Source: a virus
Virus record (IMG/VR): IMGVR_UViG_3300031987_000010
Location: 1 to 22,999 of that record
Reading direction: 5' to 3' (one strand)
DNA: 22,999 bases
Under the pieces are notes generated by a model. It was given only the letters and a program-made list of their open reading frames with translations, did not search any database and was not told the DNA's origin. The position numbers and the translations under genes were made by a program. Below are positions 5,352 through 18,462 of this stretch, one piece after another; within the stretch, counting starts at the first letter, position 1; the number at the start of each line of letters is the position of its first letter.

Positions 5352-5381
5352 CTGAACCACCAGACAAAGCGAGTCAGCGCA

Positions 5382-5873
5382 ATGAGTAACGTAACCGCCA
5401 TCCGCACCGAATCCGTAGACCTGTTTGCCGGCATCAGCGAACAGCAAATCATCGACCGCGCCATGGTCATTCTGGAGGCTCGTCACGCGCCTGGGAGCGA
5501 GCCCTTGAAGTCGCCTAATCTTATCCGGGATCACTTGCGCCTGCGCATGGCCAACTTGCCCCATGAGGAGTTTGGCTGCCTGTTCCTGGACAACCGACAC
5601 CGCCTGATTGAAATGCGCGAGCTGTTCCGGGGCACGATTGACGGAGCGGCCGTGTATCCGCGTGAAGTAGTGAAAGCGTCCTTGGCGGTTAACGCAGCTG
5701 CAGTCGTGTTCTACCACAACCACCCTTCAGGCATATCCGAACCCAGCCAGTCAGACATTTCCCTGACAAGGCGACTCAAGGAAGCGCTTGGACTGGTTGA
5801 TGTCCGGGTGCTGGACCATTTCGTGGTCAGCGGTACCGAAAGCACATCCCTGGCTGAACGCGGTCTTATCTAA
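5382..5873 (+). CDS. RadC-like MPN+/JAMM domain protein
   Basis: The protein has 163 residues, beginning [20 protein letters not shown]. The RadC/JAB core is clear: residues 56-80 ([20 protein letters not shown]), then the metal motif [14 protein letters not shown] at 112-125 (H112, H114, D125) and the upstream glutamate in HEEFG (62-63). The usual N-terminal helix-hairpin-helix of chromosomal RadC (about 220 residues) is absent, as in many phage and mobile-element copies. Despite the old name, the repair function of RadC is doubtful; zinc protease or nuclease roles have been suggested for the family. CGAGTCAGCG stands immediately upstream. In this cluster it might serve defence, anti-defence or recombination; the sequence does not decide. 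Confidence 0.9.
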
Positions 5874-8772: not shown

Positions 8773-9310
8773 TTGGCTTGTCCTCCACGAAACAGGCCTT
8801 GCCATTCAGCACGGCCCGGCAGGTTTTCGATGCAATCAGCCCGCACTCATAGCGCTGCTTCTTGCGCCATTCCGGTTCCGGCAGACCAACCGGGAAATGC
8901 GTGTGCAATGAGCGCACCTTGCCCTCGTTAATCAGGTTCAGAATCCGTGGCACATCCGGCCACTTGAAATCCGGGTCACCTAACGCCAACCGCTCCTTGA
9001 GGCGGCTGAAAATGGCTTCCAGCTGGTCAAAGCTGTATTCGCCAATCTTGTGCGCCCACTCCCGGCGCATGAGTACCAAGCGGTCCTCGTCCTCGCCCCA
9101 CAGCGTCTTGGTTCTGGACTCGCCGTAGATCGTCGCCAGGCGGGCAAAGAACACACTCGTCTTGTGGATCTCGTCGTCTGTAAACGCCCCTTCCGCCGGC
9201 GCCTGCTGGGCCAAGCTAGAAATTGTTTTTTGCGTATTCGAGGTCTGTAAGCTGGCTGCTGACTCCACTCTTTGAAGCAGAGCCGCTATTGGTTGAGCCT
9301 GTTTTTCCAT
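8762..9310 (-). CDS. Lambda P-like replication protein (helicase loader)
   Basis: P proteins bring the host replicative helicase DnaB to the phage initiator at the origin. The 182-residue protein has a variable N-terminus (1-40) then the P core: TDDEIHKTSVFFARLATIYG, REWAHKIGEYSFDQLEAIFS, and DPDFKWPDVPRILNLI, matching the family pattern of an F..L..IYG segment, a W-rich helix and WP motif. The start overlaps the end of the O-like gene by about 95 bases with GGGGG upstream. Lambda P is 233 residues, so this is a shorter member. No Walker motif is present, so it is not a DnaC-type ATPase. Confidence 0.82.
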   Translation of the reverse strand: MEKQAQPIAALLQRVESAASLQTSNTQKTISSLAQQAPAEGAFTDDEIHKTSVFFARLATIYGESRTKTLWGEDEDRLVLMRREWAHKIGEYSFDQLEAIFSRLKERLALGDPDFKWPDVPRILNLINEGKVRSLHTHFPVGLPEPEWRKKQRYECGLIASKTCRAVLNGKACFVEDKPSDQ

Positions 9311-10259
9311 GGTCGCTACCCCCGTTGTCGTGGTACCTGCGCTCGATGATTCGCATGAAGTTGCTGGCCTTGGTCAGCCATTCCAGATCCGCTACAAACC
9401 GTTTGCGCCCCGGCTTTGGGTCAACCCGTCCGCACAGGAAGTCGGACTGAGCCACGTACTCAAAGAACCGGCGCCAGAATTCCAACGAGTTGCAGGGCTC
9501 CTTGTTCCGGCCAATGCGCTGGTTCCAGCGGGCGCGCATCTGGCCTTCTCGGGTGGGCGTCCAGTCGATGAACTCCGGGTTCCCGGGCAGGATTTCGTGG
9601 TAGAGGTCCACGATGTCGTTGAACGGAACCGGTTTCTTGAGGTGCTTGGGTTTCTTGGGCGGCTTGCCTGGTGAATCATCCGCGCTGACTGTCGGGGAGG
9701 AATCCGGCTCGCTTTGAGCCGGTTCCGACAAGTAATCCGAAGGATTACTAACTATGTCTTTCTTGTCTTTTGTGTGAACCGTTTTACAGTTCTTTTTCCG
9801 AACCGTTTTACGGTTCACTGAACCGTTTTCATCGGTGGATTCACAATTACGGTTCACATTGGGATTCTCCGGGGCCTTGGTGGCCTTTTCCGGACGGTGC
9901 CACTGCTCAACCTGGCTGTTGATTTTGATCGGCGCCTGGGAGCCGCCTTCCCGGATAACCACCTGCTTCCGAATCAGCCCGGAAAGAACCGTGGAGGCTT
10001 TCTGCCGGGTAATTCGCTGCTCCGGAGAACTCATCAACTCGGCCAGCTGGCAGGCCGCTATGCGGTCCTTGCCCTTGTTGTAGCCGTAGGTCTTCCGGGC
10101 AATTGCCAGAACCATGCGCTGCTCCATGGAGGTCAGCGGAAACGACATCATCTTTTCCAGTACCGGGTTAACGATCCTGGTGTAGCCGTCCTCAAGGGCG
10201 GGCTTGCTGTCCGACATACGCGCAGACCTGGCCTCGTTTAAGCTGATTACCTGACTCAT
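9216..10259 (-). CDS. Lambda O-like replication initiator
   Basis: This is the origin-binding protein that starts phage replication. From ATG 10259 (MSQVISLNEARSARMSDSKP) it has 347 residues. Residues about 15-120 form the phage O winged-helix domain (YTRIVNPVLEKMMSFPLTSM, QRITRQKASTVLSGLIRKQV). Residues about 130-210 are a low-complexity linker encoded by the iteron region. Residues about 215-330 form the C-terminal domain that recruits P or primosome (NDIVDLYHEILPGNPEFIDW, EFWRRFFEYVAQSDFLCGRV). GGGGG is upstream of 10259, and the ATG overlaps the previous stop, so longer in-frame starts are unlikely. Confidence 0.9.
   Translation of the reverse strand: MSQVISLNEARSARMSDSKPALEDGYTRIVNPVLEKMMSFPLTSMEQRMVLAIARKTYGYNKGKDRIAACQLAELMSSPEQRITRQKASTVLSGLIRKQVVIREGGSQAPIKINSQVEQWHRPEKATKAPENPNVNRNCESTDENGSVNRKTVRKKNCKTVHTKDKKDIVSNPSDYLSEPAQSEPDSSPTVSADDSPGKPPKKPKHLKKPVPFNDIVDLYHEILPGNPEFIDWTPTREGQMRARWNQRIGRNKEPCNSLEFWRRFFEYVAQSDFLCGRVDPKPGRKRFVADLEWLTKASNFMRIIERRYHDNGGSDHGKTGSTNSGSASKSGVSSQLTDLEYAKNNF
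9704..9857. other. Probable replication origin inside the O-like gene
   Basis: The stretch carries, in order: inverted repeat CCGGCTC-5-GAGCCGG (9704-9722), AGTAATCC-3-GGATTACT (9731-9749), a T-rich, AT-rich tract (9749-9775), and at least five copies of GAACCG(T): 9776, 9800, the inverted copy at 9811-9816, 9820 and an inverted copy at 9851-9856. GAACCGT-TTT-ACGGTTC (9800-9816) is a perfect palindrome. As in lambda, repeats lie in the middle of the initiator gene, beside an easily melted tract. Confidence 0.75.
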
Positions 10260-10489
10260 ACCAGCCCCCTTTCCTGCTCGATCAGGCGTAGCTCGGCCTC
10301 GACGGCCGTGGGGTTGCACTGAGTCCCCAGCGAAACCCTCACGCACTCCAGCTGACGCAGCTCTTTGATGGGGAGCGGTTCGGTTGACCGCCTGGCTCGG
10401 CTGAGTAGCCGGCGCGTCAGGCGCCCAATACGGTAGTGCAGGCGGGCCAGCCGTAGCCGGCGCTTGCACTCAGGGATAAAACTGTTCAT
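10256..10489 (-). CDS. Small basic protein preceding the O-like gene
   Basis: The 77-residue protein is strongly basic at its start (MNSFIPECKRRLRLARLHYR) with two predicted amphipathic helices and a more acidic C-terminus (VEAELRLIEQERGLV). The stop overlaps the O-like start (ATGA), indicating coupled translation. GGAG lies 11 bases before the ATG, and CGAGTCAGCG lies about 20 bases upstream. No motif is recognised. It opens the replication gene run after an intrinsic terminator. Confidence 0.7.
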   Translation of the reverse strand: MNSFIPECKRRLRLARLHYRIGRLTRRLLSRARRSTEPLPIKELRQLECVRVSLGTQCNPTAVEAELRLIEQERGLV

Positions 10490-10529
10490 ACTTATTGAAT
10501 CTCCTAATGCGCTGACTCGTGTTGGAGAG

Positions 10530-10569
10530 AAAGCCCCTGATTGATCCCTCCAGATCCAGGGGCTTTTTT
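10530..10569. terminator. Bidirectional intrinsic terminator
   Basis: AAAGCCCCTG (10530-10539) pairs with CAGGGGCTTT (10557-10566) around a 17-base loop. Plus-strand reading ends in six Ts; minus-strand reading ends in TTTCTCTCC, weaker. On the minus strand it separates the 10866 gene from the replication genes, like lambda tR1, and would need antitermination. The loop contains the repeated GGATCTGGAGGGATCAA element. Confidence 0.7.
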
Positions 10570-10575
10570 ATGGCT

Positions 10576-10866
10576 TTAAATCCGGGTGTACCCGGACTCA
10601 AAGGCCTTTCCAGGTGACCACGATTCGTAGCCATCCTCGTACACCACGTAATACCCGCCGACTGCCGGCTTGTGCTTCATGACGTATTCCGCGCTCACTT
10701 CAAATGGCGCGAACCCATCTTCTTCAGGCGTAATCACAGCCCCGTAGGACGCGGCCGCAGAATTCCCGGACGTATCCGGATTCGGCAGCGGTTCAATGTG
10801 GGCAATCTTGAGCGCCCGAACCTCTTTGTGACTTCGGTACTTCGGCAACTCCTGCGATTCCGGCAT
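10576..10866 (-). CDS. Conserved phage protein of unknown function
   Basis: ATG 10866 has GAGGAAACAGCA upstream, giving a 96-residue protein MPESQELPKYRSHKEVRALK. The C-terminal half AEYVMKHKPAVGGYYVVYED and SWSPGKAFESGYTRI is a pattern I recall from many tailed-phage proteins of gammaproteobacteria, always with KYRSHK..ALKI near the start. The fold is probably beta-rich; function is not known to me. It lies between the cro-like gene and the replication genes, where lambda has cII, but it shows no HTH and is not a CII homologue. Confidence 0.8.
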   Translation of the reverse strand: MPESQELPKYRSHKEVRALKIAHIEPLPNPDTSGNSAAASYGAVITPEEDGFAPFEVSAEYVMKHKPAVGGYYVVYEDGYESWSPGKAFESGYTRI

Positions 10867-11290
10867 TGCTGTTTCCTCTTGGTCGTGAATTAAGGGCAGT
10901 TCCACGCCATGCCCAGGGCGACAAGTTCGCTGCAACTGTCATTGCTGCTTGGTACCCGGCCGAAAACCCCGACCCTTATGGCGGCCAGGGAACTCCCAGC
11001 CCGAAGGCACCGGAAAGGGCTCTGTCGCAATCCACTGGTATGGCCTCACTTGCGCTGCGAGTCTCCCAATGGCAAAGCCCTTTCCTGGTGCTGGCTCTTA
11101 ACGCGAGCCTCACGGCGCGAATCCGGAGGGCAACGAACCTGCCAGTTCGTAGAGGTATTTCCCGTTCCACGCTGCTGCTGATGTCTTTGGGCCAGACCCT
11201 AACCTGGCTTGCACTTGACCCAGCTCAGTCAGCACACCGGGGGCAGGCATTGATTGCGCCCCTGCCTGGCGCCGTCGAAAAATCACCCAT
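10867..11290 (-). other. Intercistronic region without a convincing gene
   Basis: These 424 bases between the cro-like stop and the next gene hold only short overlapping frames. On the minus strand a 21-codon frame starts right after the cro-like stop (MGDFSTAPGRGAINACPRCA) and ends in TGA; a 46-codon frame runs 11250-11110. Neither has a strong ribosome site. The region is dominated by inverted repeats, described separately (11007-11109), plus ACGAAC-6-GTTCGT at 11133-11150. It is better explained as untranslated leader than as a gene. Confidence 0.6.
11007..11109 (-). ncRNA. Two-stem RNA element downstream of cro (put-like candidate)
   Basis: In minus-strand RNA a short hairpin GGCTC-7-GAGCC (11109-11093) is followed, after one unpaired A (11092), by a 15-bp stem: GCACCAGGAAAGGGCT (11091-11076, one bulged A) with AGCCCTTTCCGGTGC (11021-11007), closing a loop of 54 bases. 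Two stems separated by a single unpaired base and a bulged long stem is the described architecture of HK022 put antitermination RNA. The position, after cro and before the next genes, equals lambda nutR. The structure is seen in the sequence; the function is inferred. Confidence 0.55.
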
Positions 11291-11551
11291 TCAGGCGGCG
11301 GTATTCTCCGGCGTTTCAGCCATACTGTTATCGACAGGGAACACGAACTCGGCGGGAACATGCCCGCGCTCGTACAGGGCAACCCACAGCCTTTCGAGGT
11401 TTGGCGCATAGACGTTCTGAGTCGATCCGCTTTTAACCTTCAAAACGGTCGATTCGCTCAGACCAGCCTCTTTGGCTATGGCCGGTATCTGCCGCAACTT
11501 GTGAGCGCGGCGGAGCCCGGACGCCAGGGCGGCAACCAGCTTGCTCTCCAC
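11291..11551 (-). CDS. Cro-like HTH regulator
   Basis: The 86-residue protein (MESKLVAALASGLRRAHKLR) starts at GTG 11551 with GGAGG 6 bases before. The helix-turn-helix spans about residues 20-42 (QIPAIAKEAGLSESTVLKVK), followed by a helix LERLWVALYERGHVP and a flexible tail. It is divergent from the XRE repressor gene and is the first gene of the minus early operon, the position of lambda cro. The predicted operator (11570-11583) lies at its transcription start. A CI role for this protein and Cro role for the other is the alternative, but the first-gene position in the replication operon favours Cro. Confidence 0.82.
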   Translation of the reverse strand: MESKLVAALASGLRRAHKLRQIPAIAKEAGLSESTVLKVKSGSTQNVYAPNLERLWVALYERGHVPAEFVFPVDNSMAETPENTAA

Positions 11552-11569: not shown

Positions 11570-11583
11570 AGTAAAGTTTTACT
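11570..11583. promoter_or_regulatory. Predicted repressor operator at the cro promoter
   Basis: AGTAAA-GT-TTTACT has perfect six-base inverted arms. It begins just after the -10 and covers the expected start point of the minus early transcript. A half site AGTAA also lies in the promoter spacer (11602-11606, minus reading). Near-identical 14-base sites occur at 12361 and 4489. Confidence 0.72.
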
Positions 11584-11584
11584 G

Positions 11585-11613
11585 AGCATACAGCCAACTC
11601 ATTACTTAGTCAA
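11585..11613 (-). promoter_or_regulatory. Early promoter of the cro/replication operon
   Basis: On the minus strand -35 TTGACT (11613-11608, 5 of 6), 17-base spacer and -10 TATGCT (11590-11585, 4 of 6) precede the cro-like gene. The start point near 11578 falls inside the 14-bp operator, so repressor binding would block initiation. Confidence 0.78.
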
Positions 11614-12149: not shown

Positions 12150-12362
12150 ATGACGACAGAAGCGTTAACCAAGGCCATTGAAGACCGGATTCAGCACCTT
12201 GAAATCGACCTTATGTTCTTGTCCCGCCCCGAAAACCTTTCCGCCCAAGACGGTGAATTCATCGCCTCCAAGATTGCCCAGGACGGACTCAAGCAGTTGA
12301 GCGAACTACAGGATTTAGTTGCAAATCCGGACAGCCCTCAGAAAAAAACAGCTCCCTCGTAG
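12150..12362 (+). CDS. Small acidic protein after the repressor
   Basis: The 70-residue protein (MTTEALTKAIEDRIQHLEID) is mostly helical: an amphipathic coil in residues 5-30, then LSAQDGEFIASKIAQDGLKQ and a polar tail. GAGCAGGA lies before the ATG. It ends at 12362, so the stop codon overlaps the operator that begins at 12361. No known family is recognised; small helical proteins here can be antirepressors or superinfection modulators, but nothing proves that for this one. Confidence 0.7.
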   Translation: MTTEALTKAIEDRIQHLEIDLMFLSRPENLSAQDGEFIASKIAQDGLKQLSELQDLVANPDSPQKKTAPS

Positions 12363-12374
12363 TAAACTTTTACT
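12361..12374. promoter_or_regulatory. Predicted repressor operator at the left early promoter
   Basis: AGTAAA-CT-TTTACT differs from the cro operator only in one of two centre bases. Its last base is the first base of the -35 of the plus early promoter, so bound repressor would exclude polymerase. Confidence 0.72.
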
Positions 12375-12433: not shown

Positions 12434-12760
12434 ATGACTCATTCAACTGTTTATCTCATCGACAGTGGCGGGCTCTTTTCTGCCGCTGAACGCCGCGAAT
12501 TAAGCGCCATGCTGGACGGCCTTACCGTTGAGCAGGCAGCCCGCAAACACTTCGTATCTCCCGATACCGTAAAAACCCACCGAACTGCCCTGCGGCAGAA
12601 AACTGGTCAGCATTCCAGCGCCGCCGTGGTGTCTTATTGCTTTGCAACCGGTCTGGTCAAGATTTTCAGCGACAACGACCGGAACCACCAGGCGGCATCA
12701 ATCACCGCGTTTGTTCCAGTCCCGAATCATGTAGGGGGGCACTGTTATGGCCTCTATTGA
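12434..12760 (+). CDS. LuxR-type (GerE) HTH protein
   Basis: This is the first gene of the plus early operon, 108 residues (MTHSTVYLIDSGGLFSAAER). Residues about 15-70 form a LuxR C-terminal HTH: LFSAAERRELSAMLDGLTVE, then ARKHFVSPDTVKTHRTALRQ and K, with the usual SPDTVKTHR recognition helix. There is no receiver or autoinducer domain, so it is a stand-alone DNA binder. GGAGGGATCAATGT gives the ribosome site and shares 11 bases with the leader of the 4846 gene. It holds the place of lambda N but shows no N-like arginine-rich peptide. A control role in early expression is inferred. Confidence 0.82.
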   Translation: MTHSTVYLIDSGGLFSAAERRELSAMLDGLTVEQAARKHFVSPDTVKTHRTALRQKTGQHSSAAVVSYCFATGLVKIFSDNDRNHQAASITAFVPVPNHVGGHCYGLY

Positions 12761-17632: not shown

Positions 17633-17953
17633 ATGGCAATGAGCAACAAAGAACGCGCCCGCCGGAAGCGAGAGCGGGACCGGGCCATGGGGATGAGGGT
17701 CTACCAGATGTACCTCACCGAGAACGAGAGCGGGAATATCGAGAAAGGCGCCCAGCGCCGGGGTTTTGAGGACCAAGCCGAATACCTGCTTTCACTGGTG
17801 GCCGCCGACTTGGAAAAGCCGCCGACCGTTGGGTGCAACTACCCCGAATGCGATTGCCCCTATGACCGACTGCCCGGGGAGCCATGTTTGAAGGGGCATA
17901 AAGAAGAAATTAAAACCGTGACAAGTAACGACAAGAGCGAGTCAGCAGCATGA
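17633..17953 (+). CDS. Small basic protein with C-terminal cysteines
   Basis: I start at ATG 17633 (MAMSNKERARRKRERDRAMG) because AAGGAG lies 10 bases upstream; the in-frame ATG at 17597 is inside the preceding gene without one. The 106-residue protein has a strongly basic helix (residues 4-20), then YQMYLTENESGNIEKGAQRR and EYLLSLVAADLE, which fits a ribbon-helix-helix-like fold, and a tail with CNYPECDCPY. It overlaps the next start. It may bind DNA; the target is unknown. Confidence 0.72.
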   Translation: MAMSNKERARRKRERDRAMGMRVYQMYLTENESGNIEKGAQRRGFEDQAEYLLSLVAADLEKPPTVGCNYPECDCPYDRLPGEPCLKGHKEEIKTVTSNDKSESAA

Positions 17954-18462
17954 GCATTGAAACCATTATCGAAGACATCAAGCAACAAGCCCGCAAAACA
18001 TGGGGTGGCGACGAAGGCGAACGCCGGGCCGAGAGCGTGGAGGCGGTGATTCGTAAGATCCTGCCCAACTACGCCCAGGTAATCGGCAAGCCAGAGCTGG
18101 AAATTCTAGAAGCCATTGAAAAACTCCGCACCTACAGCGTGGTGAACTACTACCAGGACGCCAATTTCCCGCTTCTTGAGGGTGACATCAAGGTGTACCA
18201 GACCGAAGACGAGCTTCGGGAAATCGTCGGCAAGGCCGGCTTCCGCTGCCCAGCATGTGAGGGGGTGTCGAGCAACCCTTATGAATGCAATGCGGGTGTT
18301 GAGCGGGATGGCGTCACCTGCAACTGGAAAGCCTACGGCCTGTTCGGAACCTTCGGGAAAGGCCTTCGCTTCACCATCGTTGAGAAGTTCATGGAGATTC
18401 CGAAGGTCGATGAAATCTTCATGCCCGTGGCCATGGAAGAAGGAGCCGACAGCAATGAATGA
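17950..18462 (+). CDS. Hypothetical protein with one zinc ribbon
   Basis: The 170-residue protein (MSIETIIEDIKQQARKTWGG) starts with an acidic helical domain, has a middle KLRTYSVVNYYQDANFPLLE and a probable zinc ribbon C100-x2-C103 ... C113 ... C124. CGAGTCAGCA precedes the ATG. No enzyme motif is visible. It lies in a run of cysteine-containing proteins and overlaps the next gene by 8 bases. Confidence 0.72.
   Translation: MSIETIIEDIKQQARKTWGGDEGERRAESVEAVIRKILPNYAQVIGKPELEILEAIEKLRTYSVVNYYQDANFPLLEGDIKVYQTEDELREIVGKAGFRCPACEGVSSNPYECNAGVERDGVTCNWKAYGLFGTFGKGLRFTIVEKFMEIPKVDEIFMPVAMEEGADSNE

Follow-up and report, generated by a model that had tools for sequence, protein, structure and literature searches.

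A two-stem structured RNA in the early right-operon leader of an uncultured F116-like phage

In an uncultured F116-like phage, the leader behind the cro-like gene contains a structured RNA element, as is evident from its fold, covariation, strand and position and from its repetition in another phage record (L062). It very probably represents a family of cis-acting structured RNAs of the early pR transcript in some F116-like phages, and this family of early-operon leader RNA is apparently undescribed. In the architecture that we propose, a short hairpin would be stacked, with 0-1 unpaired nucleotide in between, on an 18-bp helix that is near-perfect and ends in a branched tip, and selection would act on the shape and length of this helix and leave most letters free. 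To our knowledge, temperate phages have few structured RNAs that act on their early transcript, i.e., nut, put and RNase III leaders. A new family at the nutR/putR map position, with covariation and tandem copies, provides a defined test object, and the alternatives at stake are a second protein-free antiterminator or a long processing helix at the place where lambda has nutR.

The window, i.e., the whole stretch of DNA that was analysed, is a 22,999-base IMG/VR virus record, whose large terminase shares 75% identity with the terminases of Pseudomonas phages F116, phiC725A and 8P. Its early region has a lambda-like map (Table 1): a repressor-like gene is divergent from the cro-like gene, an O-like replication gene lies behind cro, and a GerE-type HTH gene and recombination genes occupy the other arm. 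The GerE/LuxR-type HTH gene holds what we take to be the map position of lambda N and has a counterpart at the equivalent place in a related record (L049). Copies of AGTAAANTTTTACT at 11570-11583 and 12361-12374, on either side of the repressor region, are probably Cro/repressor operators that mark pR and pL. At about 30 nt the pL leader is short; the non-coding leader that contains the element measures 420 nt. A motif, GAGTCAGC, was also observed shortly 5' of several gene starts (5368-5396 and 17936-17964 on the plus strand and about 10508-10524 on the minus strand). The earlier note had assigned the element to the nutR position and we concur, since it lies between the cro-like gene and the next gene. 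The latter, a phrog_11049 gene, is replaced in L049 by an unrelated 101-aa gene; because the downstream genes differ between phages, the element appears to serve the transcript and not one particular gene.

Table 1. Positions of the leader element and of the surrounding early-region features in the window and in two related phage records.
Feature	Record	Position	Strand	Remark
Replication protein, O-like	window	9216-10259	-	
77-aa Arg-rich protein (15 Arg)	window	10256-10489	-	52% identical in L049; adjoins O-like gene
Hairpin AAAGCCCCTG..CAGGGGCTTT, SD-like loop GGATCTGGAGGGATCA	window	10526-10569	-	
Same hairpin	L049	1090-1135		
Next gene after element, unknown function, phrog_11049	window	10576-10866	-	start about 10866
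P3 3' arm CAGAGCCCTTTCCGGTGC	window	11007-11024	-	pairs with 11091-11073
Branched apical part, 48 nt, CCATTGG/CCAGTGG around CTCGC/GTGAG	window	11025-11072	-	fold
P3 5' arm GCACC(A)GGAAAGGGCTTTG	window	11073-11091	-	bulged A at 11086
Single unpaired A between P2 and P3	window	11092	-	G in L049; 0-1 nt in L062 copies
P2 hairpin GGCTC-GCGTTAA-GAGCC, 5 bp, 7-nt loop	window	11093-11109	-	fold
Third hairpin ACGAAC-6-GTTCGT	window	11133-11150	-	in window; absent from L049
Conserved block with hairpin GCCAG..CTGGC	window	11171-11273	-	
Conserved block with hairpin GCCAG..CTGGC	L049	388-488	+	
Cro-like small HTH protein	window	11291-11551	-	weak match to phage repressor family
Likely pR, TTGACT-17-TATGCT	window	11585-11613	-	consensus match only
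GerE/LuxR-type HTH gene	window	12434-12760	+	first in left operon
Element copies	L062	2211-2312, 2424-2536, 3355-3477	+	two successive gene leaders

Read along the minus strand, the element comprises a 5-bp hairpin (P2), a single unpaired A and a stem of 18 bp (P3) from which one A bulges. The hairpin and the single unpaired base had been described correctly in the earlier note; the 15-bp stem given there is in fact one of 18 bp with one bulge, and the inner loop does fold further (CTCGC with GTGAG), although this apical part comprises 48 instead of 54 nucleotides. The apical fold of the window is not conserved in L049, and the third hairpin, which had also been pointed out, is present in the window but missing from the corresponding stretch of L049. 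The loop-proximal end of P3 (UUUG/CAGA) is kept in L049 and in one of the copies in L062 and slightly changed in the other two. The fold energy of the window element has a z of -2.9, with 3 out of 200 dinucleotide shuffles folding equally well. A 64-aa ORF that runs over the element was set aside; it is without a counterpart in L049.

The L049 record was reached through its large terminase, which is 87% identical to that of the window, and was selected by synteny and sequence, structure playing no part. Right behind the cro-like genes of both, a non-coding block of 103 nt shows 82.5% DNA identity and is better conserved than the Cro-like protein (37% identity between the two phages); it may represent the sequence-specific portion of the leader. 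Behind it, a hairpin GACTG-7-CAGTC is followed in L049 by a single G and a stem of 18 bp, i.e., the same plan as in the window, with a fold energy z of -3.4. When both stems are compared, with the bulged A of the window omitted from the alignment letters, the two phages have different letters at 14 of 46 paired positions, yet keep all 23 pairs, six of them via two-sided changes and two via G-U. In a random substitution control, all 23 pairs survived in none of 200,000 trials and, under a strong transition bias, in 5 out of 200,000. Compensatory changes, whose absence from homologues the earlier note named as refuting its proposal, are thus present in the stems of the syntenic L049, and the element survives this check. 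No reading frame of at least 50 codons runs across the element on its own strand in L049.

L062, another F116-like phage, provided further copies. A stem resembling P3, first seen in this record, came out on top when 1.9 Mb of loci from related phages were scanned with a descriptor; 4 out of 13 matches are elements of the window, L049 and L062, whereas block-shuffled sequence used as a control gave 1-2 matches per run. A covariance model built from the window and L049 alone was then run unfiltered on the whole 65-kb L062 record, and its best three matches (22.3, 16.4 and 13.0 bits) all fall on the plus strand, within 1.3 kb, in the early right operon. A methyltransferase-like gene has two of these copies in its leader, and the third lies between it and the following gene; this third copy had been missed by the descriptor and also has a hairpin, CCCTCTCA..TGAGAGGG, directly 5' of its long stem. 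P2 takes the forms CCCCT/AGGGG and CCCTC/GAGGG in the L062 copies, and the copy E-a has a helix of 20 bp plus 8 bp. Taken singly, E-c and E-d (16.4 and 13.0 bits) score no better than chance, as 15-17 bits are reached elsewhere in about 90 kb; the case for these weaker copies is, therefore, based on their clustering and on the adjoining hairpin. Over the five copies from three phages, 114 of 115 cells are paired and 15 of the 23 pairs show two-sided changes, the L062 copies having been selected by structure. Between the first two copies a further structured stretch, AACCATGCGGTCACC..GGTGACGATGGTT, was observed.

The same copies indicate which strand acts. When read as pR transcript, each of the five contains 1-4 G-U pairs, which on the other strand would be A-C mismatches, and scores of 100-108 bits stand against 21-23 bits on the opposite strand. 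The G-U pairs on the pR strand establish the RNA of the rightward early transcript as the functional molecule.

Beyond these three phages the searches yielded little. No DNA relatives of the window leader or the L062 leader were found in phage records, and among viral contigs the conserved block occurs only on the L049 contig. The 399 Pseudomonas genomes gave noise only, protein P0006 found nothing in 391 genomes of the order, the element model nothing in 369 genomes of the class, and an unfiltered search of 16 other related-phage loci returned chance matches only. Phage F116 itself (L128) lacks a leader of the element type, and so does the methyltransferase relative in phage KLER1-1. Loci reached via the next gene (P0002) were rejected for their unrelated context, a perfect-arm pattern match in L002 because it looks like coding sequence, a match in L110 because it lies within a gene, and a permissive long-stem scan because its noise was too high. 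Separately, a GGTCGGAAAAATCCGA-like repeat array that resembles replication iterons was seen inside an early gene of F116 (L128, 9790-9965). The family may nevertheless be larger than three phages. Rfam gave no match in the window at gathering and only sub-threshold matches, including microRNA families, in three leaders; HK022 put is likewise left without an Rfam match, so that silence of Rfam at such loci means little and does not exclude put.

As to function, we slightly favour, as a tentative reading, that the element is an intercistronic signal for processing and stability of the RNase III type. The long double helix would be cut or held by a host enzyme that recognises double-stranded RNA, e.g., RNase III, and a cut of this type would divide the transcript between cro and the distal early genes. 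RNase III sites separate the early genes of T7 in this way. For RNase III the helix should amount to about 20 bp or more, a length reached in the window by 18 bp plus an inner helix of 7 bp. Since the stem letters are free at a fixed length, the element fits recognition of a helix, and its repetition at gene borders in L062 fits processing. Such a signal would account for most of the observations, which also include the RNA strand, the location in the early right operon and the unrelated downstream genes; a put-like antiterminator would account for the position and the two-stem plan. Three observations speak against it: the UUUG/CAGA end is kept beyond what a plain double-stranded RNA signal needs, the window and L049 have a single copy just behind cro, like a nut or put site, and the sequence-conserved block upstream is left unexplained.

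The position and the two-stem plan had led the earlier note to propose a protein-free antiterminator of a new sequence class, comparable to put, the textbook RNA that controls RNA polymerase alone; the nascent two-stem RNA would bind the polymerase and make it resist the terminators of the right operon. We consider this rather unlikely. The element is placed after cro exactly like HK022 putR, and its two stems with one unpaired base match the predicted fold of put (PMC9378689). A boxA (CGCTCTTTA-like) is absent from the minus strand between 10900 and 11550 with up to 2 mismatches, and in both the window and L049 a hairpin with a weak U-run lies ahead of the replication genes, which also accords with the proposal. 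This hairpin had been put forward, at 10530-10569, as the downstream terminator. Its stem covaries with that of L049 and its SD-like loop GGATCTGGAGGGATCA is unchanged. In the pR direction it is followed by a poor U-run (TTTCTCTC in the window and TTTTCTCTC in L049), while in the opposite direction TTTTTT and TTTTTTT, respectively, are found. As the stronger U-run belongs to the opposite strand, the hairpin would act only as a weak intrinsic terminator of pR transcription, and it may serve the other strand, e.g., by ending antisense transcripts. In L062, where three copies share one operon, no plus-strand intrinsic terminator was found in the 7.5 kb behind the copies and no terminator-like site between 1400 and 10000.

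A direct comparison with put also argues against such a function. We retrieved HK022 and relatives and built a put model from 10 aligned putL/putR sequences, which recovers HK022 putL (94 bits) and putR (75 bits) but, at E values up to 10, finds nothing at the element in any of the three phages (window, L049, L062). Even with up to 3 mismatches allowed, the put core GG-TCA-GGATGA-CGGCAAT has no match in the window. No second copy of the element is present in the whole window or the whole L049 record (both fragments), and the left-operon leaders of both are too short to hold one. In our 10-sequence alignment put is conserved base by base, and the cryo-EM structure shows it to be held by conserved bases, non-canonical pairs and a triplex, with contacts with the beta' zinc-binding domain and with the base between the stems in fact paired (PMC9378689), whereas the stem bases of the element are mostly free. 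Based on the failure of the model, the absent core, the free change of the stem and the restriction to a single operon, the element does not belong to the put family; as judged from sequence, kinship with HK022 put is not supported. The part of the original proposal that is supported is a structured leader RNA of new sequence at the nutR position. A second and independent class of protein-free antitermination, in which a long-helix module, able to work in tandem and unrelated to put in sequence, would act on RNA polymerase by its shape, seems to us unlikely.

Alternatively, the conserved block and the fold could jointly bind a phage or host protein and form a nut- or LoaP-dfn-like ribonucleoprotein. 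LoaP, for which antitermination through a leader hairpin has been reported (PMC12691694), provides a precedent, and the sequence of the 100-nt stretch upstream is better conserved than that of the cro-like gene. The 77-aa Arg-rich protein kept beside O is, speculatively, a candidate RNA-binding factor, and the conserved GerE-type HTH gene that comes first in the left operon is in the place of lambda N. However, family searches recognised no N-like or LoaP-like protein, and the Arg-rich gene is situated 3' of the putative terminator and is absent from L062 (tblastn). We regard a protein partner as unlikely. It is less likely still that the leader releases a regulatory or decoy RNA, e.g., an sRNA or an inhibitor of host defence: the long structured non-coding leader of the window and the tandem copies in L062 would be consistent with it, but there is no Rfam match, no promoter or terminator of its own was found around the element and no target is known. 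That the element is a chance inverted repeat or a palindrome at the DNA level is hardly credible, since, even though a z of -2.9 for the single sequence is modest and scanning 3 Mb of strand turns up stems of this length by chance, the changes in the syntenic L049 are compensatory and the G-U pairs are confined to one strand.

Compared with known systems, the element resembles HK022 putR in its location after cro in the right operon, and it resembles put in the two adjacent stems with one unpaired base and in the lack of a recognised N-like gene. There is no sequence or model match between the two. Put has stems with non-canonical pairs, measures about 70 nt, is fixed in its bases and occurs in each early operon of HK022; the element has one long helix, near-perfect over 18 bp and branched at its tip, measures 103 nt, varies freely in its stem letters and has no left-operon copy in the window or L049. 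Like lambda nutR, it sits behind cro and ahead of both the next early gene and the replication genes, but it has no nearby boxA on the coding strand and is far larger than boxB, and no N-like protein was found. LoaP-dfn is a hairpin of Bacillota with a UNCG tetraloop, to which a NusG paralogue binds (PMC12691694); such a hairpin and a LoaP-type protein are not seen at the element, although both are leader hairpins located 5' of terminators in a long operon. RNase III sites occur in the early mRNAs of several phages, i.e., the early sites of T7 and the lambda N leader. The adjacent small hairpin, the fixed 18 bp and the kept UUUG/CAGA of the element would be unusual there, but both have a long helix in leaders or between early genes, several copies may occur per operon (as in L062), and selection acts on the helix and little on the sequence.
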